From contig NZ_CH672387.1 of NCBI RefSeq assembly GCF_000153465.1, forward strand, positions 212,179-276,178: a DNA stretch of 64,000 nt, in the 5' to 3' direction. Within the stretch, counting starts at the first letter, position 1, and each line of letters opens with the position of its first letter. Source of the stretch: Aurantimonas manganoxydans SI85-9A1 (GTDB taxonomy: Bacteria > Pseudomonadota > Alphaproteobacteria > Rhizobiales > Rhizobiaceae). Position numbers and translations under genes: made by a program. The notes under the pieces were generated by a model that worked only from the letters and a program-made list of their open reading frames with translations, ran no database searches and was not told where the DNA came from. Of this stretch, positions 12,195 through 64,000 are shown piece after piece.

Positions 12195-12425
12195 CCCGTT
12201 CTGCTGCTGGAGTCCTCACTCTAGGTAGAACGGTCTTGGTAAACGCCGGATTAAGCCCGGTCGTGAAGCAAAGATGAAAATTCGATGCAAGTACCGAATG
12301 GAAAATAAACCACGCCGCTTAAGACGATCGCAACCGGCCAGCCTTAGACATGGCTCAATCCGATCGACAAGGCTGTCGACGGGGATACTGCTTCAAACGG
12401 GTATCTGGATATCAAGGAGTTCCCA
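12195..12425 (+). promoter_or_regulatory. Divergent upstream region of the flp/tad locus
   Basis: This 231-base spacer between the lone secretin N-domain gene and flp is distinctly A+T-richer than its surroundings around 12260-12330. It should hold the flp promoter and probably that of the divergent gene. I could not assign convincing -35/-10 or sigma-54 elements. The ribosome binding site AAGGAG (12413-12418) with a seven-base spacer sits ahead of the flp ATG. Confidence 0.45.
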
Positions 12426-12611
12426 ATGTCCAAGCTTTTCGCTCGCTTCGCCAAGGATGAGTCCGGCGCAACCGCCATCGAATACGGCCTGATCGCCGCC
12501 ATCATGGCTGTCGCCCTGATCGCCGCGTTCCCGTTCGTGACCGGCGGCCTCACCACCTCCTTCACCAACATCGGCACGATGCTCGGCTCCACGCCTGCCG
12601 CCATCAAGTAA
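12426..12611 (+). CDS. flp: Flp-type IVb major pilin prepilin
   Basis: A 61-residue prepilin. The short basic leader MSKLFARFAKDESG ends in the Gly of the prepilin peptidase site, followed by ATAIEYGLIAAIMAVALIAAF, with the conserved Glu at mature position 5 and adjacent Tyr (the Flp signature) and a long hydrophobic helix. The mature pilin is about 47 residues, as in other Flp pili. A strong AAGGAG site precedes it. It is the first gene of the tad locus and is separated from cpaA by a hairpin that may let flp be expressed more strongly than the assembly genes. Confidence 0.95.
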   Translation: MSKLFARFAKDESGATAIEYGLIAAIMAVALIAAFPFVTGGLTTSFTNIGTMLGSTPAAIK

Positions 12612-12708: not shown

Positions 12709-13221
12709 ATGACGGCCCTTGCGATCCTCGTCATCTTCCCCTTCGCCATGCTCTACGCGGCCGCGTCGGATCTGGTGTCGATGACCATCGCCAACCGTGT
12801 GTCCATCCTCCTCGCCCTGGCCTTTCCCGTCGTCGCCTATGCGGCCGGCATGGCGCCCGGTGCGATCGGTGCCCATCTCGGCATCGGCCTCGTCTGCCTG
12901 ACCGTCTGCTTCGGCATGTTCGCCGCGGGCTGGATGGGCGGCGGCGACGCCAAGCTCCTGGCCGCCACCGCGGTGTGGTTCGGGCCCACCCCCATGCTCC
13001 TCGAATACATCCTCTTCGCCAGTATCTATGGCGGGCTCCTGACGATCGGGCTCCTGACCATCCGGGCCTTTCTGCAGCCCGTGACCGGCGTCGCCTTCAT
13101 CGATCGCCTGCTCGAGCGGGAAACCGGTATTCCCTATGGGATCGCCCTCGGCCTTGCCGGCCTGACCGTCTATTCCGGCAGTGTCTGGATCGACATCGCG
13201 GCCCGCAGCGCCCCGTTCTGA
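12709..13221 (+). CDS. cpaA: Prepilin peptidase CpaA/TadV
   Basis: A 170-residue polytopic inner-membrane aspartic peptidase (A24 family, short type without the methylase domain) that removes the Flp leader. The two catalytic Asp are visible: in AAASDLVSMTIANRV (about residue 20) and in GWMGGGDAKLLAA (G-x-G-D, about residue 79). The rest is hydrophobic helices. It lies directly after flp and its hairpin and before cpaB, the normal tad-locus order. The C-terminal segment contains a polar loop and a last membrane helix. Confidence 0.93.
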   Translation: MTALAILVIFPFAMLYAAASDLVSMTIANRVSILLALAFPVVAYAAGMAPGAIGAHLGIGLVCLTVCFGMFAAGWMGGGDAKLLAATAVWFGPTPMLLEYILFASIYGGLLTIGLLTIRAFLQPVTGVAFIDRLLERETGIPYGIALGLAGLTVYSGSVWIDIAARSAPF

Positions 13222-13332
13222 CGCCTGCCCGCCAAGGCGGAGAGATTTCGTTAACCATACATTGAGGGTTTGTCGGCGATAACCGTCGTGAACAGCCGCA
13301 TGGTCGCGGCCTCGTTTGCGAGGAGTAGCCCG

Positions 13333-14151
13333 ATGAATCTAGCCCGCATGGCAGTTGTGGCGGTCGCATTGGTCGCAGCCATGGGTGCGGCATTCGTCGC
13401 CTTGAACCTGCAGCCCGAAAAGGCCGAGCCGGTGATCATCACGGCGGCGCCGGCCGAGCCGCCGATCAAGCTCGCCGAAGTGCTGGTCACGTCCCGCGAC
13501 CTGTCGATGGGCGAGGCGGTGGACGAGGCGCTCGACTGGCAGAGCTGGCCCGAGGACGGCATCGGACCGACGCTGATCCGCAAGTCCGACCGGCCCGACG
13601 CCCTCGAGACGCTCAAGGGATCGTTGGCCCGCCAGTCCTTCTTCGCCGGCGAACCGGTGCGCGAATCCAAGCTGATCCGTTCGGACCAGGGCTTCATGTC
13701 GGCCGTCCTGCCGGCCGGCAAGCGGGCGGTCGCCGTCCAGATCGCGGCCGAAACGTCGGCCGGCGGCTTCGTCCTGCCGAACGACCATGTCGACGTCATC
13801 ATGACCCGCCGGGTTTCCAGCTCGGAAAACCGCGGCGACCAGGTCCTGACCGAGACCGTCCTGCGCAATCTGCGGGTCCTGGCCATCGACCAGACCATCC
13901 AGGAGAAGGACGGCGAGAAGGTCGTGGTCGGATCGACGGCGACGCTCGAAGTCGATCCCGAACAGGCCGAAGCCCTCACCGCCGCCCAGCAGATCGCCGA
14001 CCGTCTGGTGCTGTCGCTGCGCTCGCTCGCCGATTCCGTGCCCGGTTCGCCCGGCTATGCGGCCTTCCTGCTCGCCCAGGAGAACGCCCGGAACGGCAAG
14101 ATCCGGGTCGTGCGCTACGGCCAGTCCTCCGAAATCACCACCAAGGAATGA
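13333..14151 (+). CDS. cpaB: Flp pilus assembly protein CpaB/RcpC
   Basis: A 272-residue exported protein with an N-terminal membrane anchor (MAVVAVALVAAMGAAFVAL) and a SAF-like domain starting at AEVLVTSRDLSMGEAVDEALDWQSWP. The central block RAVAVQIAAETSAGGFVLPNDHVDVIMTRR is characteristic of CpaB. It is periplasmic, thought to work with the secretin channel. The ATG at 13333 follows AGGAGTAGCCCG, a good ribosome site, and gives the usual anchor; an upstream start would add about 20 non-conserved residues. It precedes cpaC by 35 bases. Confidence 0.93.
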   Translation: MNLARMAVVAVALVAAMGAAFVALNLQPEKAEPVIITAAPAEPPIKLAEVLVTSRDLSMGEAVDEALDWQSWPEDGIGPTLIRKSDRPDALETLKGSLARQSFFAGEPVRESKLIRSDQGFMSAVLPAGKRAVAVQIAAETSAGGFVLPNDHVDVIMTRRVSSSENRGDQVLTETVLRNLRVLAIDQTIQEKDGEKVVVGSTATLEVDPEQAEALTAAQQIADRLVLSLRSLADSVPGSPGYAAFLLAQENARNGKIRVVRYGQSSEITTKE

Positions 14152-14186
14152 CGGGCAACCCGATGAACGATTGGAGAGGATCCGAC

Positions 14187-15770
14187 ATGCTACGCGCCCG
14201 GCTTCGCAAACTGGTGGTCGTCATGGCCGCGGCGTCCACGGCACTCGCGCCGCTGGCAACGACCCTGCCGGCCCAGGCCGAGCAGACCGTCGTCAACGTC
14301 CGCCAGGGCTCCCAGTCCATCAATCTCGGTCTGAACAAGACCAAGGTCATCGTGCTCGAGGCCGATGCCCACGATATCCTGGTCGCGAACCCCGCGGTGG
14401 CCGACGCCGTCACGCGCGACGCCCGTCGCATCTATATCTTCGGCAAGCAGATCGGCCAGACCAACATCGTCGTCTTCGACCGACAGAACCGCCAGATCGC
14501 GTCCATCGACCTGAAGATCGAGCGCGACATCAACGGCCTCGAAGCGACGATCCGCAAATACGTCCCGTCCTCGGTGGTCCAGGTCGAGATGCTGAACGAC
14601 AACGTCGTGCTGAACGGCACCGTGCAGACTCCCCAGGACGCCGCTAAGGTCGAGCGTCTGGCGCGGCTGTTCGTGACCGGCGGGGAGGGCACAACGGGTC
14701 AGTACATCCAGCAGGCCACCGCCTCGGGCGGGGCCGGCGGCGGCGATGGCGACGTCGGCTTCGCACAGGAAGACCGCCGCCAGAGCCAGATCGTCAATCT
14801 CCTGCAGATCCAGGGCGAGGACCAGGTGACGCTGAAGGTCACCGTCGCCGAGGTCCAGCGCTCGGTGGTCAAGCAGCTCGGCATTAACAGCACTGCGGGT
14901 AAAGGTGTAACCTACGGCCAGACTGACAGTCCGTTCGCCCTTGGTAAAGCGCTGTCCTCAAGCATGCTCGCGAGCGCAGGCAGTATTGGCGGCTTTGATA
15001 TCACCGCGCAACTTAACGCCATGGAGCAGGCCGGTGTTATGCGCACGCTTGCCGAGCCTAGCTTGACGGCGATCTCAGGCGAGAAGGCCAGTTTCAAGGT
15101 CGGTGGCGAATTTACCGTACCTGATGCCCAGAGCTATGATCCCGGCACGCCCGCACGCAGGGAGTTCCAAGGGTACGATGGCAGCGGCCAAGCAATCTAT
15201 GACACGATCCCAGCCGAGCCGCCGACTAGATCAATCGACAAAACTCGAGTCGAATACGGTATCGGTCTCGATTTTACTCCAGTTGTACTGTCACCGGGCC
15301 GCATCAGCCTAAAGATTAGGACCGCAGTATCCGAGCCGACTTTTGAGATGCCATTCAACATCTCGGGCGGCAAGGACGGCGGCGTCGGTACGGTCGGCAT
15401 ACGCAAACGTCTGGCCGATACGACTGTCGAACTGCCGTCGGGCGGCTCGCTGGTCATCGCTGGCCTGGTGCGCGACGAGGTTCGCCAGGTCATGTCGGGC
15501 TTCCCCGGCCTGTCGAAGATCCCGGTGCTGGGCACGCTGTTCCGCTCGCGCGACTTCCAGCGCTACGAGACCGAGCTGGTGATCATCGTCACGCCCTATC
15601 TGGTGCGCCCGGTTCCGCGCCAGGCACTGGCCCGCCCGGACGACGGCTTCGCCCTGTCCAGCGACGGTGCCGCCAACTTCCTCGGCCGCGTCAACCGCGT
15701 CTACGGCCACATGGAAACCAAGCTGCCACCCGGCCGGTATCACGGCGTCGTCGGCTTCATCTACAAATGA
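14187..15770 (+). CDS. cpaC: Outer-membrane secretin CpaC/RcpA of the tad pilus
   Basis: A 527-residue secretin forming the outer-membrane channel for the Flp pilus. Order: signal peptide ending at LPAQA; pilus N-domain (VIVLEADAHDILVANPAVADAV); BON-like domain (IRKYVPSSVVQVEMLNDNVVLNG); secretin domain with LAEPSLTAISGEKASFKVGG, VELPSGGSLVIAGL, IPVLGTLF and ETELVIIVTPYLVRPV. The ATG at 14187 has GGAGAGGA seven bases upstream; two ATGs further up are not needed for the signal peptide. Residues about 233-415 (14883-15430) use codons such as AAA, ACT, GTA, TCA, CTA and AGA that are rare in the rest of the gene, so the gene looks mosaic. Its stop overlaps cpaD (ATGA). Confidence 0.93.
   Translation: MLRARLRKLVVVMAAASTALAPLATTLPAQAEQTVVNVRQGSQSINLGLNKTKVIVLEADAHDILVANPAVADAVTRDARRIYIFGKQIGQTNIVVFDRQNRQIASIDLKIERDINGLEATIRKYVPSSVVQVEMLNDNVVLNGTVQTPQDAAKVERLARLFVTGGEGTTGQYIQQATASGGAGGGDGDVGFAQEDRRQSQIVNLLQIQGEDQVTLKVTVAEVQRSVVKQLGINSTAGKGVTYGQTDSPFALGKALSSSMLASAGSIGGFDITAQLNAMEQAGVMRTLAEPSLTAISGEKASFKVGGEFTVPDAQSYDPGTPARREFQGYDGSGQAIYDTIPAEPPTRSIDKTRVEYGIGLDFTPVVLSPGRISLKIRTAVSEPTFEMPFNISGGKDGGVGTVGIRKRLADTTVELPSGGSLVIAGLVRDEVRQVMSGFPGLSKIPVLGTLFRSRDFQRYETELVIIVTPYLVRPVPRQALARPDDGFALSSDGAANFLGRVNRVYGHMETKLPPGRYHGVVGFIYK
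14883..15430 (+). other. Segment of atypical base and codon use inside cpaC
   Basis: By hand count, 14881-15360 is about 56% G+C (270/480), against 63-67% in the two 60-base blocks before it and 72% in the block at 15421-15480. Third positions shift to A/T (TCA, GTA, CCA, AAA, ACT, CTA, AGA, AGG). The reading frame is unbroken and the encoded stretch keeps the secretin signature, so this is an in-frame replacement rather than an insertion. The left edge (after KQLG) is sharp; the right edge fades over about 70 bases. Confidence 0.8.
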
Positions 15771-16501
15771 CCGGTTCTGGGAGATCGCAGGTGCAAGACC
15801 GTTCGCAGATCATCGGCCGCCGCCGTCCCCGGACGTCCATGGCCGCCCTGTTGCCGCTGGCCGCGATGCTGATCGCCGGTGGTTGCGCCAACGTCCACAA
15901 TGTCGAGGTCGGCTCGATCCCCGACGACTACCGCACGCGGCATCCGATCGTCGTGTCGGAGGACCAGGAAGCCATCGACATTCCGATCGTGATGTCCGAC
16001 GCCCGCCTGTCCTACGCCAATCGCGGCCGCGTCGAGCATTTTGGCGACCGGTTCCGGGCCTCGGGCGCCGATTCCATCCAGGTGATGCTGCCGACCGGCT
16101 CGGCCAACCAGTATGCCGCCGAAAGGGTCAGCCACGAGATCGTCGAGGCGCTGCGCGGTCGCTACATCTCGCGCGACCGGATCTTCGTGCAGCCCTATTC
16201 GGCGGTGGGCGCCGAAGGACCGACGCCGATCCGGCTGACCTATGCGACGCTGGTCGCCAAGACCGGCCCCTGCGGTCGCTGGCCCGACGACATGACGGAC
16301 ACGTCCGAGAACAAGAACTACTTCAATTTCGGCTGCGCCAGTCAGCAGAACCTTGCCGCCCAGATCGCCGATCCGCGTGATCTGCTGTCGCCGCGCGGCG
16401 TCGATTCCATCGATGCCGGCCGACGCACCACGGTGCTCGACAATTACCGGCGCGGCGAGCCGACGACGACGGCGGCCGGTTCCAGCGAAATCGAATACTG
16501 A
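15767..16501 (+). CDS. cpaD: Pilus assembly lipoprotein CpaD
   Basis: A 244-residue outer-membrane-targeted lipoprotein of the CpaD family, associated with the CpaC secretin. The N terminus is basic, then hydrophobic (AALLPLAAMLIAGGC), with lipobox AGGC at about residues 37-40. The body contains DDYRTRHPIVVSE, GSANQYAAERVSHEIVEALR and the C-terminal FGCASQQNLAAQIADPRDLLSPR block with paired Cys (GPCGRWPDD and FGCAS), all typical of CpaD. The start overlaps the cpaC stop, and the end overlaps cpaE (TGATG), so the assembly genes are translationally chained. Confidence 0.92.
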   Translation: MTGSGRSQVQDRSQIIGRRRPRTSMAALLPLAAMLIAGGCANVHNVEVGSIPDDYRTRHPIVVSEDQEAIDIPIVMSDARLSYANRGRVEHFGDRFRASGADSIQVMLPTGSANQYAAERVSHEIVEALRGRYISRDRIFVQPYSAVGAEGPTPIRLTYATLVAKTGPCGRWPDDMTDTSENKNYFNFGCASQQNLAAQIADPRDLLSPRGVDSIDAGRRTTVLDNYRRGEPTTTAAGSSEIEY

Positions 16502-17793
16502 TGGGAGCCGCGGAAACCATGTCTACCGCTTCGCGCGCCGCGCCGGACACCAGCTTCGACGATCCGGCCGGTCTGGAGAACGTCCGGCCGATCCCCCGCA
16601 TCTCCATCCAGGCCTTCTGCGAAAGCGAGGCCGTGGCCCGGCCGATCGAGAATGCCGGGGCGGACCGCCGCATGGCCAAGACCCACATGCGGGTCAATCT
16701 CGGTGGCATCCGCGCCGCGGTGGAGCATTTCTCCGGCGCGCCGACGCCCAACCTCGTCATCCTGGAATCCAAGCTGCCGCCGCTCGAGCTGATCGCCGAG
16801 CTGGAATCCCTGTCGGAGGTCTGCGACCCGGGCTCCAAGGTGATCATCATCGGTCACTACAACGACGTGGCGCTCTACCGCGACCTGATGCATCGCGGCG
16901 TCTCGGAATATCTCGTCGCGCCGGTCTCGATCGCCGACATCATGACGATCATCGGCTCGCTGTTCACCGCGCCGGATTCCGAGCCGCTCGGCCGCTCGAT
17001 CGCCTTTGTCGGCGCCAAGGGCGGCGTCGGTTCCTCGACGATCGCCCACAATCTGGCCTGGTCGATCTCCAAGCTGTTCTCCAGCGACGTGGTGATCGCC
17101 GATCTCGATCTGCCCTTCGGCACCGCCAACATCAATTTCGACCAGGACCCGGCCCAGGGCATCGCCGAGGCGGTGTTCTCGGCCGAGCGGATGGACGACA
17201 CCATGCTCGACCGACTGCTGTCGAAATGCGCCGAGCATCTGTCACTGCTGGCCGCGCCGTCGCTGCTGGACCGCACCTACGACTTCTCGACCGAGGCCTT
17301 CTCGGCGCTGATCGAGACCGCCCAACGTGGCGCGCCGGTGGTGGCGCTCGACATCCCGCATGTGTGGAACGACTGGACCCGCAGCGTCCTCGCCTCGGCC
17401 GACCAGATCGTCATCACCGCGACGCCGGACCTGGCCAATCTGCGCAACGCCAAGAACCTCGTCGACATGCTGGCCAAGCTGCGGCCCAACGATCCGGTGC
17501 CGCACCTGATCCTCAATCAGCTGGCGATCCCGCGGCGTCCGGAAATCTCGCCCGAGGAATTCGCCGATCCCCTCGGCCTCGAGCCGATCGCCCAGATCAA
17601 CTTCGACCCGCAGGCCTTCGGCAATGCGGCCAATAACGGGCAGATGCTCGCCGAACTCGACGGCAAGCATCCGGCCGTGGAGGCCTTCGAGCACGTCGCC
17701 CACGTCCTGACCGGACGCGGCACGGCCAAGAAGCCGAAGAAGCAGGGCCTTCTCCAGCGGCTGCGCCACAGCGGCAAAGCAACCAGGGAGTAG
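16501..17793 (+). CDS. cpaE: Pilus localisation ATPase CpaE/TadZ
   Basis: A 430-residue MinD/ParA-like protein that places the tad machine in the cell. An N-terminal receiver-like domain (about residues 60-155, with ILESKLPPLELIAELESLSE and VIIIGHYNDVALYRDL) lacks an obvious phosphorylation site. Then comes the deviant Walker A FVGAKGGVGSSTIAHNL (about 170-186), DLDLPFGTANINFDQDP, and LNQLAIPRRPEISPEEF. It starts at the ATG overlapping the cpaD stop; a second ATG six codons later is also possible. The C-terminal tail is basic (KKPKKQG), perhaps for membrane contact. Confidence 0.92.
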   Translation: MGAAETMSTASRAAPDTSFDDPAGLENVRPIPRISIQAFCESEAVARPIENAGADRRMAKTHMRVNLGGIRAAVEHFSGAPTPNLVILESKLPPLELIAELESLSEVCDPGSKVIIIGHYNDVALYRDLMHRGVSEYLVAPVSIADIMTIIGSLFTAPDSEPLGRSIAFVGAKGGVGSSTIAHNLAWSISKLFSSDVVIADLDLPFGTANINFDQDPAQGIAEAVFSAERMDDTMLDRLLSKCAEHLSLLAAPSLLDRTYDFSTEAFSALIETAQRGAPVVALDIPHVWNDWTRSVLASADQIVITATPDLANLRNAKNLVDMLAKLRPNDPVPHLILNQLAIPRRPEISPEEFADPLGLEPIAQINFDPQAFGNAANNGQMLAELDGKHPAVEAFEHVAHVLTGRGTAKKPKKQGLLQRLRHSGKATRE

Positions 17794-20355: not shown

Positions 20356-21342
20356 ATGGATATGTTCGCGCTACTCGGGGTGTCCCCGGCGGTCGCCGCC
20401 AGCTTGGTCATGGCGATCGCGGTGTTCACCACATTCGTCGCCATCGCCATGCCGATGCTCGCCGGCAACCAGCTGAAGAGCCGGATGAAGGCGGTGGCGC
20501 TGGAGCGCGACGAGGTGCGGGCGCGCGAGCGGGCGCGCATGGCCGCCGAGAACGAGCGCGGCCGCTCTGGCCTGCGCCAGCAGGACAGCAAGGGCGTCGC
20601 CAGCCTCGTCGTCGAACGGCTCAACCTGCGCACGGCGCTGGCCGACGACAAGACCGTGTCGAGCCTGCGCAATGCCGGCTATCGCGGCCAGCGGCCGCTG
20701 ACCCTGTTCCTGTTCGCGCGCGCCGTCCTGCCGCTATTGATGTTCGCCCTCGCGCTGTTCTACGTCTTCGGCCTCGGCCTTCTCGACACGCATCCGACGA
20801 TGATGCGCATCGCGATCTGCCTCGGCGTCGCTTATGTCGGATTCGTCGCGCCGATCTTCTTTGTGAAGAACCGTGCCACCAAGCGCCGGCTGTCGATCAG
20901 CCGGGCCTGGCCGGATGCCCTGGATCTGCTGCTGATCTGCGTGGAATCGGGCAATTCGATCGAGGCGGCCTTTCGCCGGGTGGCCGAGGAGATCGGCATC
21001 CAGTCGATCCCGCTGGCCGAGGAGCTGGTGCTGGTCTGCGCCGAGCTTTCCTATCTGCCGGACCGCAAGGTGGCCTATGACAACCTCGCCACCCGAACCG
21101 GCCTAGACGGCGTGCGGACGGTCTGTACGGCGCTGGTCCAGGCCGAGCGCTACGGCACGCCGCTGGGCACCGCGCTGCGGACGCTGTCGCAGGAAAACCG
21201 CGATCAGCGGATGAACCTCGCCGAGAAGAAGGCCGCCGCGCTGCCGCCGAAGCTCACCGTACCGATGATCGTGTTCTTCCTGCCGGTGCTGTTCGCCGTC
21301 ATCATCGGCCCGGCGATCATCAAGGTCATGGCCGTCCAGTAA
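20356..21342 (+). CDS. tadC: Tad inner-membrane platform protein TadC
   Basis: A 328-residue T2SSF-domain partner of TadB. Features are an N-terminal membrane helix (AASLVMAIAVFTTFVAIAM), a charged cytoplasmic stretch, paired hydrophobic helices, and the T2SSF core SRAWPDALDLLLICVESGNSIEAAFRRVAEEIG, then the terminal helix LTVPMIVFFLPVLFAVIIGPAII. The start is uncertain: a GTG at 20344, and ATGs at 20356 and 20362 are all in frame. 20356 is preferred because AAGGTG precedes it at an acceptable distance. It is the last plus-strand pilus gene. Confidence 0.9.
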   Translation: MDMFALLGVSPAVAASLVMAIAVFTTFVAIAMPMLAGNQLKSRMKAVALERDEVRARERARMAAENERGRSGLRQQDSKGVASLVVERLNLRTALADDKTVSSLRNAGYRGQRPLTLFLFARAVLPLLMFALALFYVFGLGLLDTHPTMMRIAICLGVAYVGFVAPIFFVKNRATKRRLSISRAWPDALDLLLICVESGNSIEAAFRRVAEEIGIQSIPLAEELVLVCAELSYLPDRKVAYDNLATRTGLDGVRTVCTALVQAERYGTPLGTALRTLSQENRDQRMNLAEKKAAALPPKLTVPMIVFFLPVLFAVIIGPAIIKVMAVQ

Positions 21343-21649
21343 CGGCACCGTCAGCAGGGCGCCCGGCGCCGGCCGCCCGCCGGACCGGGTCTGGCCGCGC
21401 CGTGGAGTTGGCCTCGCAGGGCGCCGACCGGAACCTTCATGACCCGCGCAAAGACGATCCGGGAGCATCGCAGCGAAGCGTTGTCGCAGCACCCGAACAC
21501 CTGAAGCTCGGCCACGGCTGTCCGACCTCCCTTGATCGCGGGGAACAAGGCCGGAGTGGGCCGCAGCTGCTGCCAACGCGAGAAGGGCGCACCCTGCAGG
21601 ATGCGCCCTTCTCGTGTCTTCGCCTGTCAGCGTGAGGCGGTGGGGCCGA
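21343..21649. other. Convergent intergenic region after tadC
   Basis: About 307 bases between tadC and the convergent TadD-like gene. Apart from the terminator hairpin at 21579-21614, I see no gene, repeat or RNA. Short open frames here have no ribosome site or recognisable product. Confidence 0.6.
21579..21614. terminator. Bidirectional terminator between tadC and tadD-like gene
   Basis: A perfect 13-base inverted repeat CGAGAAGGGCGCA (21579-21591) / TGCGCCCTTCTCG (21602-21614) with a ten-base loop that itself contains the palindrome CCTGCAGG. It lies between two converging genes and can fold identically on either strand. The plus strand continues TGTCTT; the minus strand continues with no clear T-run. 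Confidence 0.75.
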
Positions 21650-22495
21650 TCAGTTCTCGGCCTTGTCCTTGTCCTTCAGCATCGCCCAGGTGTTCTGCTG
21701 GGCGAGCATCGCCTTGAGGAAGGCGACATTGGCTTCCGCCTCGGCCGGCGGCAGTTCGCTGCTGGCGATCTTCTCGGCCTCGTCGAAGCGACCCTGCAGG
21801 CCGACGACCAGTGCCAGGTTCTGGCGCACGCGGCTGTCGCTGCCGGGCTGGGAGGCAGCGGAGCGCAGATAGGATTCGGCCGACTTCAGATCGTTGCCGA
21901 GAAGGTAGGACATGCCGAGATTGGACAGGATCGTCGGCTCGTTCGGCTGCATGTCCAACGCCTTGCGATAGAGCGTGCGGGCCGGGACCTGCTGGCCCAT
22001 CTGGTCGAGAATGGCACCCTCGGCAGAATAGAGCCGCCAGTCGGGATAGTCCGGCGTCTGGGCGCGGCGGATGGTCTCCAGCGCCTTGGGCAGGTCGCCG
22101 GCCGCGGCCAGCGCCTTGCCGTAGGCGGCGAGGACATCGCGATCTTCCGGATGGGCGATCGCCATCTGCTGCATCACTGCCAACGACTGGTCGTTGCGTC
22201 CGGCCATCTGCAGGGCGGCTGCATAGGAGAGGCCGGTGGGCTTGTTCTTGGGGTCGCGGTCATAGGCGGCGCCATAGGTGCGCACGGCCGACTGCAATTC
22301 GGTGGTGTTCATCTGGGCCACCGCTCGGCCCTGCTGCGCGGGGCGCTGGATCGAACCGGTGGTCTCGTTGGACACGGAGCCGCAGCCCTGGGTCACCATC
22401 AGGGCGAGGCACGCGCCAAGGAGCAGCCCCTGTTTCGCACGGCGTCCCGAACTAGTTCCGCGCCCGACCATGATCTGCTCCTGTTCCGCCTGCAT
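21650..22495 (-). CDS. TPR lipoprotein, TadD-like
   Basis: A 281-residue exported lipoprotein with several tetratricopeptide repeats, matching the TadD position and style in tad loci. The signal region LLLGACLALMVTQGC-G gives a lipobox Cys at about residue 38. TPR-like blocks run from about residue 70 to 250 (for example DPKNKPTGLSYAAALQMAGR, PEDRDVLAAYGKALAAAGDL, PNEPTILSNLGMSYLLGNDL). The start may be the first ATG or the ATG eight codons in, directly before a basic n-region. It is convergent with tadC and so transcribed apart from the pilus operon. TadD-type proteins are thought to help secretin assembly. Confidence 0.85.
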   Translation of the reverse strand: MQAEQEQIMVGRGTSSGRRAKQGLLLGACLALMVTQGCGSVSNETTGSIQRPAQQGRAVAQMNTTELQSAVRTYGAAYDRDPKNKPTGLSYAAALQMAGRNDQSLAVMQQMAIAHPEDRDVLAAYGKALAAAGDLPKALETIRRAQTPDYPDWRLYSAEGAILDQMGQQVPARTLYRKALDMQPNEPTILSNLGMSYLLGNDLKSAESYLRSAASQPGSDSRVRQNLALVVGLQGRFDEAEKIASSELPPAEAEANVAFLKAMLAQQNTWAMLKDKDKAEN

Positions 22496-31843: not shown

Positions 31844-33076
31844 TCACCCGAAGCTCTTGCGGGGATCGAAGGCGTCGCGCACCGCCTCACCGACGAAGAC
31901 CAGCAGCGACAGCATCAGCGAGATCACGAAGAAGCCCGAGAAGCCGAGCCAGGGCGCCTGCAGATTGTTCTTGCCCTGGGCCAGCAGCTCGCCGAGCGAC
32001 GGCGAACCGGGCGGCAGGCCGAAGCCGAGGAAGTCGAGCGAGGTGAGGGTGGTGATCGAGCCGTTCAGGATGAAGGGCAGGAAGGTCAGCGTCGCCACCA
32101 TCGCGTTGGGGAGGAGGTGTCGGGTCATGATCGTCCAGTCGCCGACGCCAAGGGCCCGGGCGGCGTTGACATATTCGAAGTTGCGGGCGCGCAGGAACTC
32201 GGCCCGCACCACGCCGACGAAGGCGACCCAGGAGAACAGCAGCATGATGCCGAGCAGCACCCAGAAGCCGGGGGGCAGGATCGCGGCGATGATCAGCAGC
32301 AGGTAGAGAACCGGGATCGACGACCAGATTTCGATGAAGCGCTGGAACAGGAGATCGAGCCAGCCGCCGAAATAGCCCTGCACCGCGCCTGCGGCGACGC
32401 CGATCACCGCCGAGGCGGCGGTCAGGATTAGGCCGAACATCACCGAAATGCGGAAGCCGTAGATCAGCCGTGCGGCGACGTCGCGAGCCTGGTCGTCGGT
32501 GCCCAGCCAGTTCATGTTGCCGAAGGTGCAGTTCGGGTCCTCGGCGCCGAGCGGATAGCGCTGGCAGCGCTCCTCCTTGGTGAACGTCCAGGAGGGCGCG
32601 GAGGGGGCCGGCGTCGGAATGGCGTTGTTGACGGTCTGGTAGGAATAGCGGATCGGCGGCCAGATCGCCCAGCCATTGGCGTCGATCTCGTCCTGCACGA
32701 AGGGGTCGCGATAGTTCGTCACCGGCAGGAAGCCGCCGAACACCTCCTCGGGATAGTCGACGACGATCGGGTAGTAGAATTCGCCCTTGTACTCGACCAG
32801 CAGCGGCCGGTCATTGGCGACGAGTTCGGCCAGCCCGGTGATCACGAACAGGATCAGGAAGATCCACAGCGACCAGAAGCCCCGCCGGTTGGCGGTGAAG
32901 TTCTGCCAGCGGCGGCGGTTCAGGGGCGACAGGCGCGGGCGCTTCGTCGTCTCCGATTCCGGCGCCATCTGGGCGATGCCGGCGGTCTGCTCGCGCGCGA
33001 TGTCGGCGGCACGCTCGTCGGGCAGTGTCGGATCCCGCTTTTCGGCGGCGAGGCGGTCTTTCTGTGCGTCGTCCAT
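31844..33076 (-). CDS. yejE: Oligopeptide ABC transporter permease YejE
   Basis: A 410-residue inner-membrane permease of the DppC/OppC/YejE type. A hydrophilic cytoplasmic N terminus of about 70 residues (MDDAQKDRLAAEKRDP...) precedes TM1 (FWSLWIFLILFVITGLAEL). A periplasmic domain of about 150 residues (with WLGTDDQARDVAARLIYG at its end) is followed by the BPD_transp_1 core and the coupling loop FVGVVRAEFLRARNFEYVNAARALG. The C terminus DAFDPRKSFG is characteristic of YejE. The ATG at 33076 is two bases after the yejB stop. Confidence 0.94.
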   Translation of the reverse strand: MDDAQKDRLAAEKRDPTLPDERAADIAREQTAGIAQMAPESETTKRPRLSPLNRRRWQNFTANRRGFWSLWIFLILFVITGLAELVANDRPLLVEYKGEFYYPIVVDYPEEVFGGFLPVTNYRDPFVQDEIDANGWAIWPPIRYSYQTVNNAIPTPAPSAPSWTFTKEERCQRYPLGAEDPNCTFGNMNWLGTDDQARDVAARLIYGFRISVMFGLILTAASAVIGVAAGAVQGYFGGWLDLLFQRFIEIWSSIPVLYLLLIIAAILPPGFWVLLGIMLLFSWVAFVGVVRAEFLRARNFEYVNAARALGVGDWTIMTRHLLPNAMVATLTFLPFILNGSITTLTSLDFLGFGLPPGSPSLGELLAQGKNNLQAPWLGFSGFFVISLMLSLLVFVGEAVRDAFDPRKSFG

Positions 33077-33078
33077 CG

Positions 33079-34212
33079 TCACACCTCCCGCTTCTCGAAA
33101 TCGATCCGCGGATCGATCCAGGTGTAGGTGAGGTCGGACAGAAGGGTCGTCACGAGGCCGAGCAGGGAGAAGATGTAGAGGGTGCCGAACACGACCGGAT
33201 AGTCCCGCTGGTAGATGGATTCGAAGCCGAGCAGGCCGAGGCCGTCGAGCGAGAAGATCGTCTCGATCAGCAGCGAGCCGGCGAAGAAGGCCGAGATGAA
33301 GGCACCGGGAAAACCGGCGACGATGATCAGCATGGCGTTGCGGAAGACGTGGCCGTAGAGCACCCGCCGCTCCGACAGGCCCTTGGCGCGGGCCGTCGTG
33401 ACGTATTGCTTGCGGATCTCGTCGAGGAAGGAGTTCTTGGTCAGGAGCGTCGTCGTGGCGAAGGCCGACAGCGACAGGGCGATCAACGGCAGGGTCAGGT
33501 GCCAGAAATAGTCCGGGATGGTCTGCGTGACGCAGCGGCCGAGATCGCCGGCCGGCGACCAGACCGCGCACCAGTCGCCGCGCACCCCGTCTGACAGGAG
33601 GCCGCGCAGCGGGAACCAGTCATAAAAGGACCCGCCGGCAAACAGCACGATGAGAATGATGGCGAAGAGGAAGCCGGGGATCGCATAGGCGACGATGACG
33701 ACGCCGGAAGTCCACACATCGAAGCGCGAGCCATCGGTCAGCGCCTTGCGGATGCCGAGCGGGATCGAGATCAGGTAGGACAGGAGCGTGATCCACAGGC
33801 CGAGCGAGATCGATACCGGCATCTTTTCCAGGATCAGCTCCCAGACGGAGACCGAGCGGAAATAGCTGTCGCCGAAATCGAAGCGGACATAGTTCCACAG
33901 CATCATGCCGAAGCGCTCCAGCGGCGGCTTGTCGAAGCCGAACTGCTTTTCGAGCCGCTCGATGAAGGCGGGGTCGAGCCCCTGCGCGCCGCGATAGCCG
34001 GAATTGTCGCTGCCGCCGCTCGAGCCCGAGCCGAAATCGCCGCCGCCACCGGACACCCGGTCCATGGCGCCGCCGGCTTCGCCCTGCAGGCTGGCGATGA
34101 CCTGTTCGATCGGCCCGCCCGGCGCGAACTGGATCACCAGGAACGAGATCGCCATGATGCCGACGAGCGTCGGGATCATCAGCAGGATGCGGCGGAGGAT
34201 ATAGGAGCCCAT
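33079..34212 (-). CDS. yejB: Oligopeptide ABC transporter permease YejB
   Basis: A 377-residue permease of the DppB/OppB/YejB type. It opens with MGSYILRRILLMIPTLVGIMAI (TM1 plus typical RR-x-LLMIPTL). The periplasmic segment has a Gly/Ser-rich run (about residues 53-73, SGGGGDFGSGSSGGSDNSG). The transmembrane core includes the coupling loop FLDEIRKQYVTTARAKGLSERRVLYGHVFRNA. The C-terminal TYTWIDPRIDFEKREV matches YejB. It pairs with YejE, two bases downstream. The preceding gap of 148 bases to the second binding-protein gene holds no gene. Confidence 0.94.
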   Translation of the reverse strand: MGSYILRRILLMIPTLVGIMAISFLVIQFAPGGPIEQVIASLQGEAGGAMDRVSGGGGDFGSGSSGGSDNSGYRGAQGLDPAFIERLEKQFGFDKPPLERFGMMLWNYVRFDFGDSYFRSVSVWELILEKMPVSISLGLWITLLSYLISIPLGIRKALTDGSRFDVWTSGVVIVAYAIPGFLFAIILIVLFAGGSFYDWFPLRGLLSDGVRGDWCAVWSPAGDLGRCVTQTIPDYFWHLTLPLIALSLSAFATTTLLTKNSFLDEIRKQYVTTARAKGLSERRVLYGHVFRNAMLIIVAGFPGAFISAFFAGSLLIETIFSLDGLGLLGFESIYQRDYPVVFGTLYIFSLLGLVTTLLSDLTYTWIDPRIDFEKREV

Positions 34213-50364: not shown

Positions 50365-50502
50365 GTCCGCCCATCGCAGGTTCCGCCTGCGCCGGGGCTT
50401 CGAGCCCAACCTTAGCGGAAGAGCCACTCCATCGAACAAGCCTGAGGATGACGGGCCTCAAGGGGGCGGTGCTGTGATGTCGGACGTCCCGCCGATGCAT
50501 TC

Positions 50503-63833: not shown

Positions 63834-63878
63834 TCAGGAGAACAGATTGTGCGGAGGAGGCGCGCCTGCTCGATCGGC

Positions 63879-64000
63879 CTACCTGACGATCAGCGTGCCG
63901 GCGCCGTGCTCGGTGAGGAGCTCCAGAAGCACCGCGTGGCGCTTCTTGCCGTTGAGGATCACGACGCCCTCGACGCCATTCTCGATCGCCTCGATGCAGG
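63879..64000 (-). CDS. argB: Acetylglutamate kinase, C-terminal end (partial)
   Basis: The minus strand encodes the last 40 codons of a protein ending [32 protein letters not shown], then TAG. This is the diagnostic C terminus of N-acetylglutamate kinase, the second enzyme of arginine synthesis (arginine-sensitive in this lineage). The gene continues off the right edge. It is convergent with the DMT transporter, 45 bases apart. Confidence 0.9.

Follow-up and report, generated by a model that had tools for sequence, protein, structure and literature searches.

The window, the whole stretch of 64,000 nucleotides that was analysed, carries a tad operon in which an uninterrupted open reading frame of 540 amino acids at 14148-15770 on the forward strand encodes CpaC, the outer-membrane secretin of the Tad pilus. 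Upstream lie genes for the Flp pilin (12426), a prepilin peptidase (12709) and RcpC/CpaB (13270), and downstream those for CpaD (15767), a ParA-like AAA protein (16501), a T2SSE ATPase (17801) and two T2SSF proteins (19300 and 20344); from their positions we take the ParA-like protein to be CpaE and the ATPase to be CpaF. A TPR gene recognized by Pfam at 21653-22495 is on the strand opposite to the operon. Pfam matches on the neighbours place cpaC between cpaB and cpaD, and no mobile-element protein was found among the ten operon proteins run against Pfam. CpaC itself matched the pilus N-terminal domain T2SS-T3SS_pil_N (PF13629, residues 56-124, E 6e-21) and Secretin (PF00263, residues 291-487, E 2.1e-34), both passing the cut-off, while the BON match (residues 133-179) scored 26.0 bits against a cut-off of 27. 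Its best sequence match among solved structures was RcpA (8odn), and by sequence the gene is the Tad secretin CpaC/RcpA, a predicted outer-membrane pore through which the pilus passes. The structure was predicted with the CpaC sequence of the window plus 58 of 80 loci as input, the other 22 being dropped, and gave a mean pLDDT of 61.8 and a pTM of 0.34; Foldseek searches with this model reached TM-scores of at most 0.26 (normalised by query). Model and search tell us no more than that the protein is a secretin, and the model serves here for rough strand positions.

The original prediction was that residues 233-415 of this gene show foreign-looking codon use within an intact frame, and a drop in G+C, GC3 and codon choice was indeed confirmed from 14883 to about 15410. 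G+C was 57%-60% in 300-base windows starting at 14800-15200 and 62%-70% in the other windows within 13000-17700. GC3 at residues 246-424 was 62% as against 89%-91% in both flanks, and when set against 921 windows, each of 179 codons, cut from the remaining ORFs taken as genes, the core lay below the mean by 5.0 SD for GC3 and by 4.8 SD for codon log-frequency; because these windows overlap, the SD is no more than a guide. The module is real, with its limits corrected to residues 246 to about 420. Only seven of the 921 windows had lower GC3, all in the 5' part of an ORF on the minus strand at 31847-33571, where GC3 was 0.46-0.61 in 179-codon windows and G+C was normal; the start of this ORF was probably set too far upstream, leaving it over-extended. 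A separate low point of 53% G+C, below that of the cpaC core, was seen at 12200-12499 upstream of the pilin.

Among 36 related cpaC genes the window has the lowest core GC3 (0.62, compared with 0.89 in the same-genus genome G007). Selection at the RNA level, which had been offered as another cause of the codon dip, was considered and judged unlikely, given that nine further genes carry an allele of this class and eight of them have core GC3 of 77%-96%; the ninth has 65%, and its own flanks are also low (74%). Core GC3 of 0.77 against 0.92 in their own flanks was observed in two other genes, L007 (of genome G004) and L035 (of Aureimonas sp. Leaf427), and both cores could be additional imports of recent date.

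G007 is colinear with the window, with a nucleotide identity of 95.2%, and scanning in 150-base windows gave nine stretches below 0.85. The cpaC core drops to 0.47, a second stretch to 0.69 and the remaining seven to values of 0.81-0.85. The second stretch (21301-21690) takes in the last part of a tad gene and the gap separating it from the TPR gene and probably represents ordinary intergenic change. Elsewhere G007 has about 1.3 kb which is absent from the window at 63834-63884, a small insertion or deletion, and 109 additional bases at 50433. Within CpaC the native left flank (residues 1-245, 14148-14882) is 100% identical in protein and 95%-96% in nucleotide sequence to G007, and the native right flank (residues 425-540, 15420-15767) is 99% and 97% identical. 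The module between them (residues 246 to about 421, 14883-15410, GC3 about 0.62) has only 62%-66% nucleotide identity, falling to 36%-37% at residues 328-366, and 54%-58% protein identity (54% for residues 246-416). Change-point analysis of this pair put the limits at residues 246 (245-247) and 416 (415-421). In the DNA the left edge lies between 14802 and 14885, the last earlier difference being at 14801 and a dense run of differences starting at 14885, and codon alignment with G007 places the right edge between about 15395 and 15431.

The module is itself built of alternating conserved and variable parts. Variable patch A (residues 246-295, 14883-15032; family conservation 0.61, low model confidence) is followed by a conserved inner block (residues 296-323, 15033-15116; conservation 0.95) which contains the secretin motif LAEPSLTAISGEKASFKVGG, correctly predicted to lie inside the foreign stretch, and in which the residues are those of G007 and the codons are different. 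Next come a hypervariable stretch (residues 324-367, 15117-15248), a second conserved inner block (residues 368-400, 15249-15347; conservation 0.95) and a short variable patch (residues 401-416, 15348-15395; conservation 0.55) which is probably the turn of the inner lip. On either side stand conserved border blocks, at residues 215-245 (14790-14882) on the left and 417-445 (15396-15482; conservation 0.95) on the right, the right edge falling near the start of the latter. Mean pairwise nucleotide identity over the 36 family rows was 0.87 in the left border, the highest of nine DNA segments of cpaC, and 0.83 in the right border, level with the inner blocks (0.83 and 0.82), compared with 0.60 (residues 246-295), 0.50 and 0.54 in the variable patches. 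Such conserved borders are suited to homologous recombination.

In the two inner blocks, which were used for a synonymous comparison with G007, codons for the same residue differed at 33 of 57 positions as against 39 of 306 outside the module (p=1.6e-12), so that synonymous change was 4.5 times higher inside than outside. Fast protein evolution alone does not explain this, and the close relative, far from sharing the codon dip at equal synonymous divergence, has no dip at all. The Flp pilin differs from that of G007 solely in three of its last four residues, and a coupling of the module to the pilin was accordingly rejected, as no pilin exchange accompanied it.

Trees were built under LG+G4 without mixture from 36 genes of Aurantimonadaceae and near genomes with four outgroup genes, drawn from 112 distinct rows in which identical genes were kept once. 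The flank tree joined the window and G007 with support of 100/100. In the core tree the window fell instead within a set of ten (class I, support 98/96) including Aureimonas glaciei, A. phyllosphaerae, Aureimonas sp. SK2, Leaf427 and Aurantimonas sp. VKM B-3413, while G007 and G004 became sisters (99/96), against the flank tree. AU tests rejected the window and G007 as a clade on the core data (p 0.0006), and on the flank data rejected both the set of ten (0.0004) and G007 with G004 (0.0006); the first of these groups was named before the trees were made and the other two were chosen after seeing them. The segments of the gene thus have conflicting trees and different nearest relatives, G007 for the flanks and, among the best 80 of 309 matches, Aureimonas glaciei for the core (75%), followed there by A. 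phyllosphaerae (74%), SK2 (72%) and VKM B-3413 (71%).

These results leave very little room for a history free of recombination, in which the module evolves very fast under positive selection and its codon use has drifted. Patch A, the hypervariable stretch and the lip do vary across the family, and pairs of the same allele class show up to 0.16 of extra core divergence, as such a history would have it; for the window pair it is contradicted by the changed codons of unchanged residues, and it would also have to account for the move of the window to another allele class in the core tree and for the AU rejection.

We were unable to find the donor. A search of contigs with the core gave at best 75% amino acid identity (among the best 80 of 309 matches), and no donor was found in 394 genomes of the family, themselves a selection from a larger group, or in three genera represented by 6, 21 and 3 genomes; by DNA the closest core had 67% identity. 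No plasmid record covered 80% of the core, and the one in the 60%-80% identity band was outside the ten listed. Five of the 21 genomes of one of these genera, g103 (G248, G379, G419, G421 and G422), had no match to the CpaC core, possibly through loss of the tad locus. Within the genome the core had a single match at E<=0.001, with no second copy, and the G007 core as query found cpaC and two weak matches (E 0.078 and 0.118). Antigenic variation from silent cassettes was rejected, as the genome holds no further cassette copies.

That the donor is unsampled would also fit a chimera produced by assembly or contamination. Against this, the joins are in frame and at borders like those between other genomes, the assembly has a completeness of 100, contamination of 0.03 and a contig of 4.29 Mb, and it holds no second copy of the core, all of which makes a chimera highly improbable.

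Either lineage could in principle have changed, and the grouping of the G007 core with that of G004 against the flank tree would suit G007 as the recipient. Of the two, odd codons are found solely in the window core, and the G007 core is close to that of G004 (0.81 nucleotide identity, near the 0.87 of the flanks), which makes it likely that the lineage of the window received the module and leaves G007 an improbable recipient. As donor one would expect a relative of lower GC content with a class I allele. The module may itself be mosaic, since the best match of patch A is a class III allele (0.58, L004) and those nearest the Gate 1 stretch are of class I (0.61, L031 and L003), a weak indication from 50 and 44 residues.

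To relate the module to the channel we aligned CpaC with RcpA by phmmer, and residues 327-367 fell at RcpA 245-256; the available text of the RcpA study describes residues 242-255 as the unbuilt tip of Gate 1 (PMC10499894). In this alignment the most variable stretch of CpaC corresponds to the tip of Gate 1, which lies within the channel. At residues 328-366 the stretch has 39 amino acids in all ten class I rows and at most 33 in the other 26. For pIV, a filamentous-phage secretin, the accessible part of one report (PMC8563730) proposes that two glycines act as the hinges of Gate 1, with variable loop tips facing the pore, and since Gly319, Gly320 and Gly371 are invariant in 59 CpaC sequences we infer that Gly319 or Gly320 and Gly371 are the hinges here. 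The low-confidence model shows a turn at residues 406-412 between two long strands which is probably the inner lip. The lip of RcpA is expected to enter the membrane with only a minor protrusion into the outer leaflet (PMC10499894, available text), while a Caulobacter model has an upper lip that reshapes the membrane around the extracellular opening (PMC13170226, available text); exposure of the CpaC module to the cell exterior is thus no more than plausible. The suggestion that a surface-exposed secretin is a plausible target of phage or immune selection needs one change, in that the most variable part aligns with a gate tip lying within the channel. Gate 2, on our reading of the sequence near residues 447-467, would have stayed native.

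To determine whether the same tract differs in other lineages, 84 close pairs were compared by the divergence of the core in excess of the flanks. The excess lay between 0.24 and 0.45 for 56 of them and did not exceed 0.16 for the other 28, leaving a gap with no pair in it; the pairs come from 47 distinct genes with flanks above 88% protein identity (L146, another secretin, being excluded) and are not independent, so that sister groups carrying different modules are the better count. A second definition of pairs gave 30 of 100 at <=0.165, 66 at >=0.23 and four between. On the flank tree six sister groups carry different modules on matching flanks: the window versus G007; G004 versus A. endophytica with A. 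aggregata (whose modules are sub-classes within a single coarse class); A. phyllosphaerae with SK2 versus Leaf324 with an Aureimonas MAG; Jiella mangrovi, J. sonneratiae and J. pelagia versus J. avicenniae with two further genomes; G029 versus Fulvimarina; and G301 versus G188 (flank support 94/86). The class label changes 14 times on the flank tree, or 13 with two classes merged, a count with no shuffle control in which some classes are weakly supported, and we prefer the sister groups to it.

The synonymous evidence for recombination in these other groups is mixed. In the 100 pairs of the second definition, with the window left out, the synonymous excess in the inner blocks was 0.072 in differing pairs and 0.029 in same-class pairs (p 0.013, the pairs not being independent). 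Single-pair tests fell below 0.05 in four of 12 differing pairs (window/G007, G004/A. endophytica, A. phyllosphaerae/Leaf324 and A. phyllosphaerae/MAG) and in none of 17 same-class pairs, some of them from other genera. As eight of the 12 differing Aurantimonadaceae pairs lack a significant synonymous excess, the case for the other swaps comes mostly from the protein trees and the two-group pattern. The more distant genus g15 (56% identity) had flanks of 0.95-0.97 and cores of 0.60-0.65 in six of ten pairs, and same-residue codons in the inner blocks differed more than those outside in all ten (nine with p<0.05, uncorrected). Mesorhizobium-type genera gave one broad hump peaking at 0.16-0.20 with no two-group pattern, 53 of 292 pairs being at >=0.24. 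The genus comparison omitted L064 (truncated) and L106, its Jiella set was not counted because some genomes seem to be present twice, and the genus of G094 was represented by one genome.

Change-points in differing pairs tended to recur, with the left one at residues 243-249 in nine of 11 (exceptions at 189 and 238) and the right one at 415-417 in seven of 11 (exceptions at 367, 430, 464 and 464). A start at 248 was likewise fitted in three of eight same-class pairs, one of which has its end at 417, but support was weaker there, with log-likelihood gains of 14-17 compared with 28-168 in the differing pairs. Since protein-variable patches have their edges at these same borders, recurrence is partly built in and is suggestive of exchange, not proof. 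In 12-kb profiles of differing pairs the core was low but not uniquely so: the 500-base windows at or below the core numbered 16 of 241 (L032/L048), 22 of 241 (L034/L048), 7 of 241 (L044/L046), 89 of 241 (L039/L046) and 51 of 240 (L040/L046), and in same-class pairs 38 of 240, 157 of 241, 73 of 241 and 158 of 241.

Considered together, the differences between flanks and core in relatives, trees and synonymous change support the predicted in-frame replacement from a distant tad locus, and we are confident that the foreign module of the window was acquired by homologous recombination. About 530 bases of cpaC would have been replaced in frame by those of an unsampled lower-GC relative, in an exchange ending in the two conserved border blocks. 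What came in would be the first half of the secretin barrel, including the hairpin of Gate 1 and what is probably the inner lip; the protein would have kept its own N-terminal domains and C-terminal part. Because the neighbouring tad genes match those of G007, the new pore would be working with the native machine.

The forces which maintain the modules can be addressed with less assurance. It is possible that selection for diversity, acting on the gate and on the mouth of the channel, keeps several module classes circulating across genera, the selecting agents being perhaps pilus-dependent phages or others which reach the pore from outside; permeability is another candidate cause. In favour of selection are the single deep tract in 64 kb for this pair, the same tract differing in other lineages (the six sister groups and g15) and allele classes common to several genera. 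The same observations count against the other reading, about as possible, that recombination is real and neutral, the conserved borders permitting exchange and the protein tolerating change; the strong conservation of the left border, the limitation of protein variability to these patches and the lack of a known phenotype fit such neutrality, and the right border is no more conserved than the inner blocks. In Ferrovum populations RcpA/CpaC is among the genes with variable disruption, as far as the available text of that study shows (PMC8899612), which might be a hint, no more, of shifting pressure on this gene. Returning to selection, we tentatively propose that CpaC contains an exchangeable gate cassette, a few old allele classes of which would move between species and genera by way of the conserved borders, with selection at the mouth of the pore maintaining their diversity. 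This cassette, made up of the Gate 1 tip, the lip and the first barrel strands, could perhaps be regarded as the equivalent, in a bacterial pilus portal, of trans-species polymorphism.

RcpA/CpaC of the solved structure (8odn) shares with this protein its family, secretin fold, gate layout and function as Flp pilus pore, while the available text of that article (PMC10499894) says nothing of a gate module being exchanged. Neisseria porB (PMC10327514) and Yersinia ompF (PMC3105102) are, by the accessible parts of those reports, likewise outer-membrane pores with interspecies transfer or recombination; they are porins with extracellular loops, whereas in cpaC the gate module of a pilus secretin is concerned, with classes spread across genera. 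In pIV, as inferred for CpaC, Gate 1 lies between two hinge glycines and has variable pore-facing tips, and a Gate 2 mutant lets in vancomycin and bacitracin; the hinges are 29 residues apart in pIV and about 50 in CpaC by our count, and that study describes Gate 1 as more strongly conserved among secretins than the other gate, in contrast to CpaC, where no stretch varies more than the Gate 1 tip (PMC8563730, available text). In the open-licence literature, from titles and the openings of abstracts, we found no report of a pilus or Tad secretin with the gate exchanged as a unit. Mosaic surface proteins are already known, and the element that appears new is the gate exchanged as a unit in a pilus secretin. 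Caution is warranted with trees made from whole cpaC genes. The window strain and G007 form a natural pair with nearly the same machine and a different gate, and if selection drives the exchange the Gate 1 tip would be a candidate site of contact with some external agent.
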